Part shown: positions 13,919 to 27,178 of the stretch, in pieces | Layout of the letters: every line of letters begins with the position of its first letter | How positions within the stretch are numbered: the first letter of the stretch is position 1 | Origin: a virus | Reading direction: 5' to 3' (one strand) | Virus record (IMG/VR): IMGVR_UViG_3300037882_000583 | Location: 1 to 27,178 of that record | Length of the DNA: 27,178 nt | Notes under the pieces: model-generated | The model's database searches: none | What the model was told of the DNA's origin: nothing | Seen by the model: only the letters and a program-made list of their open reading frames with translations | Made by a program: the position numbers and the translations under genes

Positions 13919-14217
13919 GCCGACACGCCTTTCGCCCTCGCCCAGAATTCAATCTTTTCCCCCACAGCTACGGCACCAGTCCCAACCCATCGCTCGACAT
14001 GCCTTCCGGCTTTGGTGATGGCGAAGTCGTAATGATAGTTCCCGGTGCTGTCCTTCGTAATGTCTGATGGCGTCGGATAGTTCTTTGTCACTTCCGTTCC
14101 GTCCGGCTCACGAATGACAAGCACAACAGCCGTTGGGTCAGTAGCAGCGCCGGCAATGTTTGTGAACGCACAGGAACAGCGTTTCAGGTCTCCGACATCA
14201 TAGGCCGTGGTGGTCAT
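13915..14217 (-). CDS. Ig-like beta-sandwich structural protein (100 aa)
   Basis: This 100-residue protein looks like a single immunoglobulin-like or head-associated beta-sandwich: YDVGDLKRCSCAFTNIAG, then AVVLVIREPDGTEVTKNY and DSTGNYHYDFAITKAGRHVE ending in WVGTGAVAVGEKIEFWARAK. Proteins of this shape occur next to connector genes in many siphophages. It lies between the 1040-residue repeat protein and the connector gene, coupled to both by ATGA. It might attach a head or neck fibre; that is inference. Confidence 0.72.
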   Translation of the reverse strand: MTTTAYDVGDLKRCSCAFTNIAGAATDPTAVVLVIREPDGTEVTKNYPTPSDITKDSTGNYHYDFAITKAGRHVERWVGTGAVAVGEKIEFWARAKGVSA

Positions 14218-17200
14218 TGAATCGTCGCCCCTCCAACGCTTCCAGATATTCCCGCCCCCGGCTTACTGCCGGAGACAGACGCGCCGCCAGATGAGGCGCT
14301 AATAGAACTACCGGGAGCAGACCCCGTGATAGCTGCTCCAGCAATTGTGTTTTCAATGTCGGCAAGCCCAGGAACAGAGGCCGCCGTTATGGTCAGCGTA
14401 ACATCTGAACCTGTAACGAGATATGAGCCTGCTTCGGCAGACAGTATGCGGCCAAGTTCAAGACCGGCATCAAATCCGGTAATGACATATCCGCCGGCAT
14501 TGGCTTCTATCAGGCGGTTGAAATACAGGTCCGCGTCAGAGCCTGTTACCGCATAGCTACCAGCGCCAGCTATTAACTGGCGGTCGAATTCCAGGGCCGC
14601 ATCGGAACCAGTTACGACATACGATCCCGCCTCTGTATTGAGGACGTATGTTCTATCAAACGTAGCGTCTTGACCTGTGACCGAATAGCTACCTGCCCCA
14701 GCATCAACCGCATAGGTGCGGTTAAACGTGGCATCTTGACCGGTTACAGCATACGATCCGGCCTCAGCCGCTACGGCCCTGCCAAGATTTAGAGCAGCGG
14801 TTTGGCCGGTAACGGCATAACTGCCAGCTTCGGCGACAACCTCGGCACCGCATGGCGGGTTTGTTCCGCTATCGGCCAGCGCACCAGTGACGGTGAAATC
14901 GCCGCCGCTACCACGATTTGTCTCAAATCCCGTTGCGGGGCCGCGCAAATAAACAATTGGAGCGGTGCCGGTCGGCGTTGACCCGTCAGCACCAAGAGAA
15001 ACCGCGCCACCAGAAGCGTGGATGAACTTCCGGCGATTGGCCTCGACGCTGAAATCAAAGTAAACGCCCTGAGCAAACCAAAAATCCGCCAGATCGCCAT
15101 TCAGTTTATTTGCGCCATCGCTAGGACGCGCACCCACACCCCAATCAGTCGCGGTGTAATCAACGTCAAATGCGGCTCCAGCATCTGTTTTAACACCGCT
15201 GTCATCCGCATCGTTAACCCAGATGCTCATCAGCTTGTTGCCGGCGGTGAAATTCGTGTCCCATGACATCAGGACAGACATCCACCCGCCCGCAGACGTG
15301 CGGTTAACGGCCCCACCTAAAGTGGCGGAAATGGCCCCCGTACTATCTACAACAAATACCTGAAATCTATTTGCAGCAGTGCGTTCAATAATTACCGCTG
15401 CATTGCCGGCATTCAGTATGCGCTGGCGAACTCCGTCGCCAGCAGCGGCGAATTTGACCCAAAAACAGCACGTCCCCCGAGAATTATTCGCAGAGCCAGT
15501 CAGGTCCGCGCCGCGAGTCAGGTAATCATTCGTACCGTCGAACGTAACGCCAGCAGGACAATTCCATGTTCCGGCGGGCGTATATTCCAGCGCCGCATCA
15601 GAACCGGTTACCGCATAAGACCCGACCCCGGCATCGAGGACATAGGTCCGGTCAAATGTGGCGTTCTGCCCCGTAACCGCATAACTGCCCGCGCCCGCAT
15701 CAACCGCATATGTGCGATTGAACGTCGCGTCCTGTCCGGTGACGGCATAACTACCGGCCTCGGCGGATAGGCTCAGGCCCTTGGCAAGTACTGCATCCTG
15801 TCCAGTTACGGCATATGAGCCGCCATCAGCGATGATCTGTTTGTCATGCTCTAGCGCCGCAGTCTGTCCCGTGACTGCGTAACTGCCTGCGTTAGCGTCC
15901 GCAACATATGTACGATTGAACGTAACGTCCTGACCGGTAACGGCGTAGGAGCCGGCATCGGCAAGAAGTGTCAGGCCCTTGGATAGTGTGGCATTCTGAC
16001 CGGTGACGGCATAGCTTCCGGCATTGGCGGCAACTACACGCCCATACTGCGTCCCGGCGGTTTGCCCGGTGACGGTGTAGGAGCCGGCATCTGCAGCAAG
16101 TTCCAGAGCGGCTGTTGTCCCGCCAATCGCCAGATAACCGAATATAAACGCTGTGCCAGCGGTGGTCCAATTCAGGACGAACTCAGTTGACGTTGAGGCG
16201 TCGATATCTGCTTCAGCGGATACAGTCCCGATAGCCGTGGGGCTTCGGATGCTAATGCACTTCGTCGCCGACGTACCGCCGTTGCAATCAATCGGGTCGC
16301 TGGCGTTATCTTCGATCCAGAAGCAACACCGACTGTCTGCAGATGGAATGCCGAAACCGAAAGAAGCTGCGCGATCCCCGGCCGTATAGCCTGAATTATT
16401 GACCACAGCCGTAGTGTTGAAGCCCGCCAGCATAACAAGCTGTGGTTCAAACCCTACGTTAGTGGCCTTGGTCGTAACACTGGTCGGTGCCGTCTCAGTG
16501 CCAGCTGCGACATTGATGTTGGCACCGCCGATGCAGAGATAAGAAACCGTCAGACTTGCGGCGGGCGCATTAAGAGGATCAATCGTGAACCCGTCACTAT
16601 CGAACGATACAAGCGCGAATTCGCTGTCTACAGTGCCGGTTGATGCCGTAAGCGTCTTGATGCAGTTATTGTCACATAGGTCACCATAAAATTCATTTAC
16701 CGTCGCGCCGTCATCACCTGCGGACTCCCACACCCAATCAGCGGTGGATGAAGTTGCAACGCCGATGCCGAAATTAGCGTCTGCGGATACAAATGATCCC
16801 GCAGTTGTCGCTAATCTACTCCAGACGAATATCGCGGCCTTTGGCTGGAACCCGACGCCGGTCTCCGCGATGTTTCCAGTGCCGGTGCCGGTGTCGAAGT
16901 TGTCCGCGAAGACGCTCAGATCGTCGCCGCCTATGGCGACATACTGGATCGCAACGCCCGCCGCGGTCGTGGTCCAGTTTAGCGTGAAGCCGTCAGTGTC
17001 GAACGATACGAGGACCGCCGCTAGATCGGTGGTCGTCGCATTGTCGTCGTTCTTGAATATGCAGGAGGTCTCACTAAACCCCACCGTCATATTCTGCGTG
17101 CCTACGCCGTCATTGTTTTGCCAGCAATGACACTGGTTCCGCGCCGCAGTGCTGCCGGTCGTGAAACCAAACATACGGTGATCGTCGGCGCCGGTAGACC

Positions 17201-17336
17201 CAGCGGATTTGAAGCTGGCGAAGAATATAATGGCTTTCGGAACCAGGCCGTTACCAGCGCCAGTGAAATTGTAGCTCTGGTTCCCCGTACTAGCGGGGCT
17301 GGTTATTTCGCCTGTCTCTGACCAAAATGACGGCAT
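14214..17336 (-). CDS. Large repeat protein with lectin-like (LamG) domain, probable virion fibre/decoration
   Basis: This 1040-residue protein has a modular layout visible by eye. Residues 1-410 hold three tandem beta-domains of about 135 residues, each with an x-VGFxPK- or P-rich strand (32, 161, 293) and a closing segment ending AIGG, CIGG or AIGG (near 135, 269, 404). Residues 411-586 are eight 22-residue repeats. Residues 587-830 form a LamG/concanavalin-like domain (VTFDGTNDYL and CCFWVKFA ... WVND ... DFWFAQG). Residues 831-984 are seven more 22-residue repeats. Residues 1001-1036 are four exact 9-residue ISGSxPG-type repeats. No signal peptide. Position between connector and capsid genes, and the carbohydrate-binding type of domain, suggest a surface-exposed head or neck fibre; this is not proven. 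Start has GGAGTAGGT directly upstream. Confidence 0.8.
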   Translation of the reverse strand: MPSFWSETGEITSPASTGNQSYNFTGAGNGLVPKAIIFFASFKSAGSTGADDHRMFGFTTGSTAARNQCHCWQNNDGVGTQNMTVGFSETSCIFKNDDNATTTDLAAVLVSFDTDGFTLNWTTTAAGVAIQYVAIGGDDLSVFADNFDTGTGTGNIAETGVGFQPKAAIFVWSRLATTAGSFVSADANFGIGVATSSTADWVWESAGDDGATVNEFYGDLCDNNCIKTLTASTGTVDSEFALVSFDSDGFTIDPLNAPAASLTVSYLCIGGANINVAAGTETAPTSVTTKATNVGFEPQLVMLAGFNTTAVVNNSGYTAGDRAASFGFGIPSADSRCCFWIEDNASDPIDCNGGTSATKCISIRSPTAIGTVSAEADIDASTSTEFVLNWTTAGTAFIFGYLAIGGTTAALELAADAGSYTVTGQTAGTQYGRVVAANAGSYAVTGQNATLSKGLTLLADAGSYAVTGQDVTFNRTYVADANAGSYAVTGQTAALEHDKQIIADGGSYAVTGQDAVLAKGLSLSAEAGSYAVTGQDATFNRTYAVDAGAGSYAVTGQNATFDRTYVLDAGVGSYAVTGSDAALEYTPAGTWNCPAGVTFDGTNDYLTRGADLTGSANNSRGTCCFWVKFAAAGDGVRQRILNAGNAAVIIERTAANRFQVFVVDSTGAISATLGGAVNRTSAGGWMSVLMSWDTNFTAGNKLMSIWVNDADDSGVKTDAGAAFDVDYTATDWGVGARPSDGANKLNGDLADFWFAQGVYFDFSVEANRRKFIHASGGAVSLGADGSTPTGTAPIVYLRGPATGFETNRGSGGDFTVTGALADSGTNPPCGAEVVAEAGSYAVTGQTAALNLGRAVAAEAGSYAVTGQDATFNRTYAVDAGAGSYSVTGQDATFDRTYVLNTEAGSYVVTGSDAALEFDRQLIAGAGSYAVTGSDADLYFNRLIEANAGGYVITGFDAGLELGRILSAEAGSYLVTGSDVTLTITAASVPGLADIENTIAGAAITGSAPGSSISASSGGASVSGSKPGAGISGSVGGATIQ
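14229..14336 (-). repeat. Four 9-residue C-terminal repeats
   Basis: Residues 1001-1036 read as AAITGSAPG, SSISASSGG, ASVSGSKPG, AGISGSVGG: a period of nine with small residues and x-I/V-S/T-G-S, likely a slender beta-structured or collagen-like tail. Confidence 0.85.
14385..14846 (-). repeat. Seven 22-residue repeats (second block) in the 1040-residue protein
   Basis: The repeat tyrosine falls at residues 840, 862, 884, 906, 928, 950 and 972, again exactly every 22. Units 10-12 closely match units 6-8 of the first block (FNRTYAVDAGAGSY and FDRTYVL), suggesting a block-level duplication around the lectin-like domain. Confidence 0.95.
15579..16106 (-). repeat. Eight 22-residue repeats (first block) in the 1040-residue protein
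   Basis: The tyrosine of the AGSYAVTGQ-type motif recurs at residues 420, 442, 464, 486, 508, 530, 552 and 574, an exact period of 22 (66 bp) with no insertions. Unit pattern: hydrophobic-x2-A-x-A-G-S-Y-A-V-T-G-Q-x-A-x-F/L. The DNA copies differ at many synonymous positions, so this is not a recent simple tandem duplication. Confidence 0.95.
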
Positions 17337-18158: not shown

Positions 18159-18169
18159 GGGAGCCTCCT
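18156..18169 (-). promoter_or_regulatory. Strong Shine-Dalgarno preceding an ACG codon
   Basis: AGGAGG (18169-18164), spacer CTCCC, then ACG (18158-18156). The site overlaps the TAG stop of the HNH-AP2 gene. Spacing is optimal for ACG and far too long (about 45 nt) for the TTG at 18119, which decides the start. Confidence 0.75.
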
Positions 18170-18662
18170 ATTTGACTGCGGCGAATTCGCCGTGCAGCCG
18201 CTCGGCCGCTTCGCGATATGCCTGGTGGGCCAATTCGGGCGTGTCATGAAGCCCGAGCGAGTGGGTGACGCCATTAACGGTTATCCGGGCATACCATTTC
18301 CCGGACTGCCCATGGACGTGAGCACCCTTCAACCGCGAAGTGCTATTTGATTGAACTCCGCGATTGCATTGATTCTGCGACCTTGTTGCCAGCCGCAGAT
18401 TGCACCAACGATCATCCATGCGATCACGATTCGCGTGATCTACGGTTGACGGCATTTCGCCAGTCATCCACATGAACGCCAGCCGCGATGCCTTGTAGAC
18501 GCGGCCATCAACGCCGATTAGCCGATATCCCTGCACAGGCTCTTGATGCCCGACCACATCGCCGACCTTGACGCGATTGCTGGTCTGTTTTGCCCAATAA
18601 AAAAGACCCGTCTCAGGGTCGTATTTCATCAGTTCTCGTAGCCGTTCGCGAGTAAGCGTCAT
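18168..18662 (-). CDS. HNH endonuclease with C-terminal AP2-like domain
   Basis: This 164-residue protein is a free-standing homing-type endonuclease. It begins with LRELMKYDPETGLFYWAK (the HNH_3/AP2 family N-terminal beta unit), followed by VYKASRLAFMWMTGEMPSTV, DHANRDRMDDRWCNLRLATR (the H-N-H core, residues about 75-94) and SQNQCNRG. The C-terminal part, KGAHVHGQSGKWYARITVNG followed by HSLGLHDTPELAHQAYREAA, is an AP2-like DNA-binding domain. It is coupled by ATGA to the Rossmann-like gene and supplies the ribosome site for the next gene in its last codons. Its insertion in this operon looks complete, with no interrupted neighbour visible. Confidence 0.9.
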   Translation of the reverse strand: MTLTRERLRELMKYDPETGLFYWAKQTSNRVKVGDVVGHQEPVQGYRLIGVDGRVYKASRLAFMWMTGEMPSTVDHANRDRMDDRWCNLRLATRSQNQCNRGVQSNSTSRLKGAHVHGQSGKWYARITVNGVTHSLGLHDTPELAHQAYREAAERLHGEFAAVK

Positions 18663-24384: not shown

Positions 24385-26754
24385 TCAGTCCAGTACAGTG
24401 ACACCGCTCGCGGGGATTGGGATTGCGTTATTCGCAGCCCGCTTGACCCCCATTGCCAATACAACAATACCATCTATTCGCCCCAATGATTTTCTCTTGG
24501 TGAACTTCCGGCTGCCTGCTGGGTCCATTTCGAGAACCGCATTCAGCGAACACATAGTCGTGACAGGATTTTTTTGTATCCGTGCGTGTTTATTCAAGAT
24601 CGCCGTTTCCAGCGCATCCACCGCAGGCCCCATATCCTTGAAGCCCTGCCCGAACGGCACCAGCTTCAACCCGCGCGGATAATCCTTCGATCCCTCGACG
24701 TATGAGGGAACGTCAGCCTCGTCTAACTCCCGTAACAGGTCGTCAATGCGCCAGCGGTCATAAGACAGTTCAACGATATTGAACCGCTCGACCGCTTCGC
24801 GTATCGCAGAGGCTATGAATCCGTAATCAATCGACCTGCCGGGAACCGATTCAATGAACCCCTCCCGCTTCCATACCGAGTATGGAACGTGTTCCCTGTC
24901 CTCGCGCTCCCGCATGGAATCCTGTGGGGTCCAATACTGAACGAAACAATCAACCTCGCCGTCATCATCGGGAAACGTAAACCCCAATGCAGTGAGGTCA
25001 TTCTTGCCGGACAGATCCAGACTTAGATAACAGCGGCGCTTTTCAAACGCAGCCAGGTCAATATCGGCAAGAGAGCCGTTCCAATGCTCCACCGATATCC
25101 ATGGGCTTTCAGCATCTGTCCATTCGCAGAAGTTCAATCTGCGGACGATGCTTTCCTTGGACGGCATCCCCTTTGCTTCGGCGACTTGCTCCCGCAGGTA
25201 CTTCACGGGAACCGAAACGCCCAGCAGCGGGTTAGCCTTTAACCAAACGGCCTCGTCTCGGTAGTCGTCGCCCTCGCTGTTAACGACTATCGCATCATTC
25301 TGAACACTGCTGCAGCGGCGGATTTTGCAGGTAGTAGAGTGCGCGTTGAATAGCTTCTGCAGTATCTCCGAGGTGGCCGATTGAACGGTTACAGGGAGAG
25401 CAGAGGAACCCCCTGGCCTTTCCAGTATCGTGGTCATGATCGATGACCATAATGCGTTCCGTAGATCCGCATATTCCGCACCCCGCATCAGAGAGCTTTC
25501 TAGCGATCTCTTGAGGGATACCAAACTCTCGTAGTCGTTGGGTGCGAGCCTGCTTGCGGCGGTATCCAGGTCGAGCGGCCAACCACTCGCGCTTGTACTC
25601 GGCAACGCGCTTTTGGTTTCTGGCGGCCCACCTATCAACGTTCGCCCGTTGTCGTTTTTTGAACTCGGGGTCGTCGTTGCACTTTTTCCGGTGATAGCAG
25701 GACGGACAGAGCCCGAGCGCCTTTTGCTTTCGCTCGGGATGGCAGGTGGCTGGTCGGCCCCCGCGCCATGTCTTGAGATAGCATGTGTGACAAAGCCCAG
25801 CGGCTTTATGGCGTCGATCTGGGTGACAATCAGCGTATCGCATGTGCAAGAGGTTAGCAAATAATCTGTCGCAGCGCCAGCCCTTCTTTCATATATATGC
25901 GAACCAACATCTAATCCGCAAACGTAAGCAAACCAGGTGTCGTTATGGTCCAGCCCCTCAAGGATTCTGCGGCTGTACTCGTGGTGCTGCCAGCAAACCG
26001 AGTTCCGATCATAGCCGGAATTGGTGATTTCCAGTATCAGGGCCTGCCTTCTGCCCTTAGTTCCGGCCCGCATCTTGTCCACAACGATGGCTGTGGGGTG
26101 TTCGTGGACCTCATCAATGGCCGCGTAGTGGACCCTTTTGCCGTCCAGGCCCCGTCCTTCGGACGATACCGGGCGGAAATATGACCCGCTCGGCATGTGC
26201 GCGATGTTGTTCACGGTCTTGGTCAACCGCTTCTGCAGCTGCGGCGACGTGTCCACCATGTTCTCGGCATCACGGAACAATATCTTGGCCTGGTCCTGAG
26301 TGACGGCAGCGGCGTAGCAGTGCGCGCCAACCTCCCCATCCCCGACCATCATATAAAGCCCGAGGCCCCCAGCGAGCGGAGACTTTCCGTTACCCTTGCC
26401 GATCTCGACATAGGCGGTTCGGAACCGGCGATAGCCATCCGGCCCCTTCCAGCCGAATAAACTGCCCACAATGAACTGCTGGGCAGGCTGTAAAACGAAC
26501 GGCTGGCCGGCATGTTCGCCTTCAGCGAGGCGCAAAACATCTGGGAAGAACCCAATTGCCCGCTCCGCAGCCTCCCGATCCCAGGCCAATCCACGCCCGG
26601 AACCGCTTTCTAGATCGTCTAGATGCCTCTGACAGGCCAGCCTAACAAGCCTGCCGGCAACAATCTCGCCGGCAACTACAGCCCTGGCATACCTCTCAAC
26701 GGGGTCAGCTGGCGAAATATCGCTCGGCGGGGTCTGCTGATTTTGATTTTCCAT
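24385..26754 (-). CDS. terL: Terminase large subunit, interrupted by a 211-codon insertion
   Basis: This gene encodes the DNA packaging ATPase/nuclease, in one open frame of 789 codons. The N-terminal ATPase has Walker A GKGNGKS (119-125) and Walker B AIDEVHEH (Asp214/Glu215). After FAYVCGLD (Asp282) the family sequence breaks and resumes at EGDDYRDEAVWLKANPLLGV about 211 codons later. The nuclease domain has LSLDLSGKND, LSYDRW and RIDGIVVLA with its acidic residues. Removing 25276-25908 leaves 578 residues, a normal length. In this frame the inserted part has no known domain; it is the off-frame reading of an HNH gene. The ATG 26754 has AAGGCGG before it and overlaps terS by 50 nt; an in-frame TTG at 26796 lacks such a site. 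Whether the protein is made whole, spliced or broken is open. Confidence 0.88.
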   Translation of the reverse strand: MENQNQQTPPSDISPADPVERYARAVVAGEIVAGRLVRLACQRHLDDLESGSGRGLAWDREAAERAIGFFPDVLRLAEGEHAGQPFVLQPAQQFIVGSLFGWKGPDGYRRFRTAYVEIGKGNGKSPLAGGLGLYMMVGDGEVGAHCYAAAVTQDQAKILFRDAENMVDTSPQLQKRLTKTVNNIAHMPSGSYFRPVSSEGRGLDGKRVHYAAIDEVHEHPTAIVVDKMRAGTKGRRQALILEITNSGYDRNSVCWQHHEYSRRILEGLDHNDTWFAYVCGLDVGSHIYERRAGAATDYLLTSCTCDTLIVTQIDAIKPLGFVTHAISRHGAGADQPPAIPSESKRRSGSVRPAITGKSATTTPSSKNDNGRTLIGGPPETKSALPSTSASGWPLDLDTAASRLAPNDYESLVSLKRSLESSLMRGAEYADLRNALWSSIMTTILERPGGSSALPVTVQSATSEILQKLFNAHSTTCKIRRCSSVQNDAIVVNSEGDDYRDEAVWLKANPLLGVSVPVKYLREQVAEAKGMPSKESIVRRLNFCEWTDAESPWISVEHWNGSLADIDLAAFEKRRCYLSLDLSGKNDLTALGFTFPDDDGEVDCFVQYWTPQDSMREREDREHVPYSVWKREGFIESVPGRSIDYGFIASAIREAVERFNIVELSYDRWRIDDLLRELDEADVPSYVEGSKDYPRGLKLVPFGQGFKDMGPAVDALETAILNKHARIQKNPVTTMCSLNAVLEMDPAGSRKFTKRKSLGRIDGIVVLAMGVKRAANNAIPIPASGVTVLD
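25276..25908 (-). mobile_element. HNH-bearing insertion within terL
   Basis: Relative to the expected Asp-Glu junction (GLD / EGDD), 633 bp (211 codons) are extra. The insert holds one HNH gene, about 65 nt before it and 19 nt after it. The length is a multiple of three and the TerL frame stays open across it. No complete group I core could fit outside the endonuclease gene. An alternative boundary (after T 25913 and after G 25277) would satisfy the group I U/G splice rule and join CGF to EGDD. Confidence 0.75.
25295..25843 (-). CDS. HNH / endonuclease VII-type homing endonuclease nested in terL
   Basis: This 182-residue enzyme is in a different frame from TerL on the same strand. The N-terminus has two zinc-knuckle-like repeats (CHPDRRHKAAGLCHTCY and CHPERKQKALGLCPSCY), a basic linker, and then the endonuclease VII-like core CGICGSTERIMVIDHDHDTG (residues about 126-145) ending KARGFLCSPCNRSIG, a ββα-metal fold with HNH catalytic His in DHDHDTG. 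ATG at 25843 is the first good start; a TTG 6 nt upstream is possible, and an in-frame TGA lies further up. The ribosome site is weak. Presumably it cleaves terL genes lacking the insert. Confidence 0.92.
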   Translation of the reverse strand: MRYADCHPDRRHKAAGLCHTCYLKTWRGGRPATCHPERKQKALGLCPSCYHRKKCNDDPEFKKRQRANVDRWAARNQKRVAEYKREWLAARPGYRRKQARTQRLREFGIPQEIARKLSDAGCGICGSTERIMVIDHDHDTGKARGFLCSPCNRSIGHLGDTAEAIQRALYYLQNPPLQQCSE

Positions 26755-27153: not shown

Positions 27154-27178
27154 AGATCGGAAGAGCACACGTCTGAAC
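27154..27178. other. Illumina TruSeq adapter sequence at contig end (artefact)
   Basis: The last 25 bases begin AGATCGGAAGAGC and continue exactly as the standard read-through adapter. They are not biological; phage sequence ends at or before 27153. The 47 bases between adapter and the terS start contain no gene. Confidence 0.97.

Follow-up and report, generated by a model that had tools for sequence, protein, structure and literature searches.

A hidden HNH endonuclease gene inside an open terminase reading frame: a probable translated insertion in a phage packaging gene

Results

The large terminase gene (terL) of an environmental phage carries a 633-nt insert that holds a complete HNH endonuclease gene in another reading frame and leaves terL open from its start codon to its stop codon. 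The best explanation, to which we give a probability of about 70%, is that terL is read through, that the insert is retained in TerL, and that homing is served by an endonuclease made as a separate translation product. The window, as we call the whole stretch of DNA analysed, comprises the 27,178 nt of IMG/VR virus record IMGVR_UViG_3300037882_000583. An earlier note on this DNA had described an out-of-frame HNH gene within an unbroken 789-codon terL, and both the reading of the frames and the Pfam match of the nested product (PF02945, 1e-16) bear this out. The features are as follows.

26754-24385, minus strand: terL as a whole, stop-free from ATG 26754 to the stop at 24385, 789 codons
25909..26754, minus strand: 5' part of terL, N-terminal region and ATPase domain, from the ATG to the GLD codon (PF03354, 4e-28)
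25276..25908, minus strand: insert between GLD and EGDD, 633 nt, open in the terL frame (211 codons); 0-63 nt in relatives
25850..25908, minus strand: insert leader, 5' of the first possible HNH start, 59 nt, without a Shine-Dalgarno sequence
25295..25849, minus strand: HNH gene of the Endonuclease_7 type, TTG 25849 or ATG 25843 to TGA, in a frame different from that of terL
25276..25294, minus strand: insert tail, 3' of the HNH stop codon, 19 nt
24385..25275, minus strand: 3' part of terL, linker and nuclease domain, from EGDD to the stop codon (PF20441, 7e-28)

The two recognised domains of TerL flank the insert, TerL_ATPase at residues 91-261 and TerL_nuclease at residues 494-774 (Pfam). 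The start codon at 26754 has a weak Shine-Dalgarno sequence (AGGT), and the 5' part is 56-71% identical to its relatives; in kind, the terminase is nearest to those of proteobacterial phages and prophages. Nuclease residues D579, D665 and D760 show no variation across 49 sequences. As terL is essential in tailed phages, 211 extra residues in this motor could mean that the gene has been broken by a recent, lethal or near-lethal insertion, in which case the sequenced genome would be a dead end or defective copy; the single environmental record would suit such an event. Against this, 65 of the 66 columns that are at least 97% conserved in 48 relatives are intact in the window TerL, the other head genes (portal, protease and major capsid) are intact, and a depletion of stop-prone codons in the HNH gene, described below, suggests that this gene has resided for some time within a host frame that is translated. 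We therefore regard a broken terL as unlikely.

The conserved GLD and EGDD of TerL are separated precisely by the insert, whose ends are fixed to within about one codon and which coincides with the 633 nt that had been proposed at 25276-25908. Its length is a multiple of three, and its removal restores a normal TerL. The comparison with insert-free homologues that the earlier note had called for covered 153 relatives, namely those in which both TerL halves align up to the junction; extra length there was 0 nt in 111, 3 nt in 17, 54 nt in 18, 57 nt in five and 63 nt in two. Thus 128 relatives have 0 or 3 nt, 25 have 54-63 nt, and none exceeds 63 nt. The insertion site is a loop that already varies by 0-21 codons among relatives. 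The longer form of the junction is a loop, mostly with four cysteines; in L084, L086, L087, L090, L092, L094, L097 and L099 it sits exactly at this site, measures 18-19 residues and is zinc-knuckle-like.

The record ends in AGATCGGAAGAGCACACGTCTGAAC (27154-27178), which we take to be untrimmed Illumina TruSeq adapter. This apparent adapter at the contig end might raise the suspicion that the insert junctions, too, are artefacts of metagenome assembly, but a chimera would need two joins, each falling precisely between conserved codons and each preserving the terL frame, and the codon depletion fits a gene adapted to this nesting; an assembly origin is accordingly the least probable of the alternatives. 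No second HNH gene was found at the same TerL site in the phage collection (searched with a chimeric query), in viral contigs or in genome contigs, leaving one instance of the element at this site in the collections searched. Terminal repeats and a target duplication, including a likeness of the insert start to the 3' flank such as ShiLan has, were no better than in shuffled sequences and were discarded; the one exception, in a set of four DNA tests, was an inverted match, itself weak (p 0.03).

Read in the terL frame, the insert matched no family above cut-off in Pfam, PHROG or NCBIfam. In an AlphaFold2 model of the long TerL (49 aligned sequences; mean pLDDT 80.5, pTM 0.70), both TerL domains lie mostly above a pLDDT of 90. 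Within the insert, residues 285-390 and 471-487 are almost all below 50, and residues 391-470 are partly helical at about 56-80. The model suits a tolerance of the insert by TerL without proving it.

The nested gene is complete, as had been claimed. Its product matches PF02945 (1e-16) and phrog_2914 (1e-28), and retains in alignment the residues common to all aligned members, among them the DHDH motif of the active site, the Asn that follows and the Cys pairs for zinc binding. The HNH start lies at insert offset 59 (mod 3 = 2), which places terL in the +1 frame relative to the HNH gene. Outside that gene the insert has 59-65 nt 5' of the start, depending on the start codon, and 19 nt 3' of the stop, in agreement with an earlier estimate of about 84 nt. 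No Shine-Dalgarno sequence was recognisable before the HNH start. A direct search returned no close relatives of the window HNH, and a search for relatives of another phage HNH gave a single locus. Within the set collected for the survey below, its nearest relatives are non-nested genes, and the phage HNH examples whose surroundings were inspected are separate genes. A Vibrio phage PJN101 HNH, considered as a nested case, shares no more than a few bases with the end of thyX.

Elsewhere, the window holds two further HNH endonuclease genes of other families, apparently free-standing, at 1753-2307 (phrog_1492) and 18168-18662 (phrog_99), and at 14214-17336 a gene for a 1040-residue protein with many repeats of a GSYAVTGQ motif and no PHROG match.

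Phage homing endonucleases often reside in group I introns, and an insert that falls exactly between codons and whose removal restores a normal TerL is what an intron would leave. A group I or II intron core was sought with Rfam covariance models, and the insert gave no relevant match at the gathering threshold or at E<=10. Two positive controls run in this mode, the LittleE and BAKA phage introns, for which splicing is experimentally proven (PMC3706429), matched RF00028 at 3e-5 and 1e-4, respectively. RNA folding of the insert was no better than that of shuffles (z +0.5), against -4.9 for the BAKA intron. These results rule out a recognisable group I or II intron and strengthen the earlier argument against a standard group I element. 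A compact or new type of self-splicing intron, with a core overlapping the endonuclease gene and terL restored in the RNA, would have to escape the same tests with only about 80 nt outside the HNH gene. Moreover, if GLD is left intact, so that U closes the 5' exon, the last base of the insert is C, whereas group I introns usually end in G, and such an intron would not require an open frame. We consider it slightly less likely than a broken terL.

An intein was ruled out in the same manner: the window TerL had no match to TIGR01445, TIGR01443 or PF14890 (NCBIfam, Pfam), the models of which match control TerLs, and the earlier objection to an intein stands. An insert in the TerL of Stenotrophomonas phage SOVA965, considered as a parallel, is, judged from its sequence, an intein at the P-loop.

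TerL might also be made as two polypeptides, an ATPase and a nuclease, or ribosomes might bypass the insert, as happens in T4-like phages. The known bypass of gene 60 covers roughly 50 nt, which 633 nt far exceeds; the terL frame lacks a stop to end a first part and, on our reading of the sequence, has no ATG, GTG or TTG close 5' of EGDD; and neither route needs an open frame. Although in T4-like phages nrdA and gene 60, divided by mobE and mobA, yield parts that function jointly (PMC2988022), and the insert here is likewise located between two domains, we find both routes very improbable.

Is the open terL frame a matter of chance? When the codons of the window HNH gene were shuffled among synonyms, the terL frame stayed open in 15% of trials for the whole insert and in 30% for the domain, but with phage codon usage in only 1%. 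Taken by itself the window gene does not decide the matter, and a wider set of Endonuclease_7 domains was therefore collected: 228 distinct domains from fetched loci, mostly gathered by DNA patterns. In this sample, which is biased by the patterns used and whose sequences are interrelated, the +1 frame (that of terL) was stop-free in 11 of 228 domains, and all 11 were nested in a longer host frame. Among the non-nested genes there was no such case (0 of 217), where nested genes with closed host frames, as in introns, would go unrecognised as nested.

Non-nested genes had 5.3 stops in the +1 frame, with 5.2 expected from their own shuffled codons; nested genes had none, against a shuffled expectation of 1.1. 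Because this expectation is itself low, the make-up of the nested genes is depleted of stop-prone codons. In the window HNH gene these codons (NTA and NTG) amount to 3.9%; among 62 non-nested genes of similar G+C, a single one is this poor in them. Across the Endonuclease_7 genes, stops averaged 4.4 in the +1 frame and 10.3 in the +2 frame; since +1 stops are the rarer, the third-frame relation seen here is what a need for an open host frame would predict. The confinement of a stop-free +1 frame to nested genes makes it most likely that translation of the terL frame is what has kept it open across the insert. The earlier note had left four options standing. Its translated 211-residue insertion is now clearly favoured by the survey, and its other three have lost ground: a compact splicing element through the Rfam and folding results, bypass through an open frame that it would not need, and a broken terL through the residues that are kept.

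Ten of the 11 nested Endonuclease_7 genes are in TerL genes, nine of these in inteins (L237, L312, L333, L388, L401, L408, L418, L441 and L452). Pfam Intein_splicing (PF14890) was confirmed in all six that were scanned:

L237:4590-7166, TerL gene with an intein holding an Endonuclease_7 gene
L312:330-2960, the same arrangement
L333:3-1946, the same arrangement
L408:511-2904, the same arrangement
L418:2916-5291, the same arrangement
L441:8705-10315, the same arrangement

The intein assignments of L388, L401 and L452 were made by eye, and L401 runs off its contig end. In these TerL genes the endonuclease of the intein is encoded in a separate frame and is not part of the intein protein. Mean identity among the nine cases is 49% in the HNH frame against 30% in the host frame, which gives the host reading the look of filler from which stops are excluded. 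In the library searched, no publication dealt with TerL inteins that contain out-of-frame HNH genes; they may be described in a preprint on non-canonical intein architecture that PMC11855218 cites.

An RNA ligase gene (PF09414; L292:170-1303) has an out-of-frame Endonuclease_7 gene inside its domain, with the host frame open and without an intron match, and is by its sequence a second case lacking a splicing element. In a helicase-like gene (L273:3-1715), whose contig ends soon afterwards, an Endonuclease_7 insert is open in the +2 frame, not the +1; compared by eye, this gene resembles the helicase part of Pacc40 gp60.

Discussion

We propose that an HNH homing gene of the Endonuclease_7, free-standing type moved into a length-variable loop of terL between the ATPase and nuclease domains, where it stays unremoved. 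Ribosomes would continue across the insert in the terL frame and produce a TerL of 788-789 residues with a mostly disordered 211-residue insert that the two-domain packaging motor would tolerate and still function. From the same RNA, an internal start in the other frame would yield an active endonuclease; terL alleles without the insert would be cut by it at their conserved site, and repair would then copy the insert across. The insert would persist since the endonuclease gene is held free of terL-frame stops. An insert of 211 residues may well cost the packaging motor some activity. The nesting could even be of use to the phage, if TerL and the endonuclease VII-like protein share overlapping frames because the endonuclease has been recruited to packaging, for example to trim or resolve branched DNA, in an amount tied to that of TerL; we think this very unlikely.

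Should terL indeed be read through as we propose, homing genes that lack their own splicing device would seem able to settle within other genes by adapting their codons. Nesting can be tested from sequence by asking whether the +1 frame of an Endonuclease_7 gene is stop-free (11 nested genes, none of 217 others), and, as this was found in nested genes only, such elements can be sought systematically.

Several known systems share part of this arrangement. The group I intron in the capsid gene of LittleE (PMC3706429) likewise places an HNH-type homing gene at a precise site in a conserved phage gene, but its ribozyme core is detectable, unlike any in the window insert, and the intron closes the host frame (PMC11855218). 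In phages Aeh1 and T4, mobE in nrdA and mobA in gene 60 are, like the window gene, free-standing homing genes that entered an important gene; those insertions split their hosts into separate coding regions (PMC2988022), whereas the window host frame is uninterrupted. The TerL inteins described above also have an Endonuclease_7 gene in the +1 relation inside an open TerL frame, but there the open stretch is part of a protein-spliceable intein (PF14890), absent from the window, and both the TerL family and the site are different.

The closest likeness is to the ShiLan domain, a 202-codon (606 nt) insert in a phage methylase whose host frame is open and which holds an HNH gene in the third frame (PMC11855218; Genes 2025, 16:178). 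Neither an intron nor an intein was detected in that study, which documented a patchy spread (PMC11855218). In view of this published precedent, to call any functional option unprecedented would be too strong. On re-reading ShiLan and Pacc40 we found a frame relation identical to that of the window insert. Both ShiLan and the window combine an insert of a multiple of three (606 and 633 nt) between conserved codons with a stop-free host frame and a third-frame HNH gene; neither insert has a detectable intron or intein, and in both the host-frame product is mostly without confident structure. In its architecture, as far as sequence can tell, the window insert is thus a hidden HNH insertion of the ShiLan type. 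The differences are that the ShiLan element has a patchy spread and the window element was seen once only; that ShiLan belongs to mycobacteriophages, whereas the window terminase is most like those of proteobacterial phages and prophages; that the window HNH is of another family, Endonuclease_7; and that its host is an essential packaging gene rather than a dispensable methylase. A hidden HNH insertion is now seen in an essential packaging gene and with a different endonuclease family, which suggests that this architecture arose more than once and is not an oddity of mycobacteriophage methylases.
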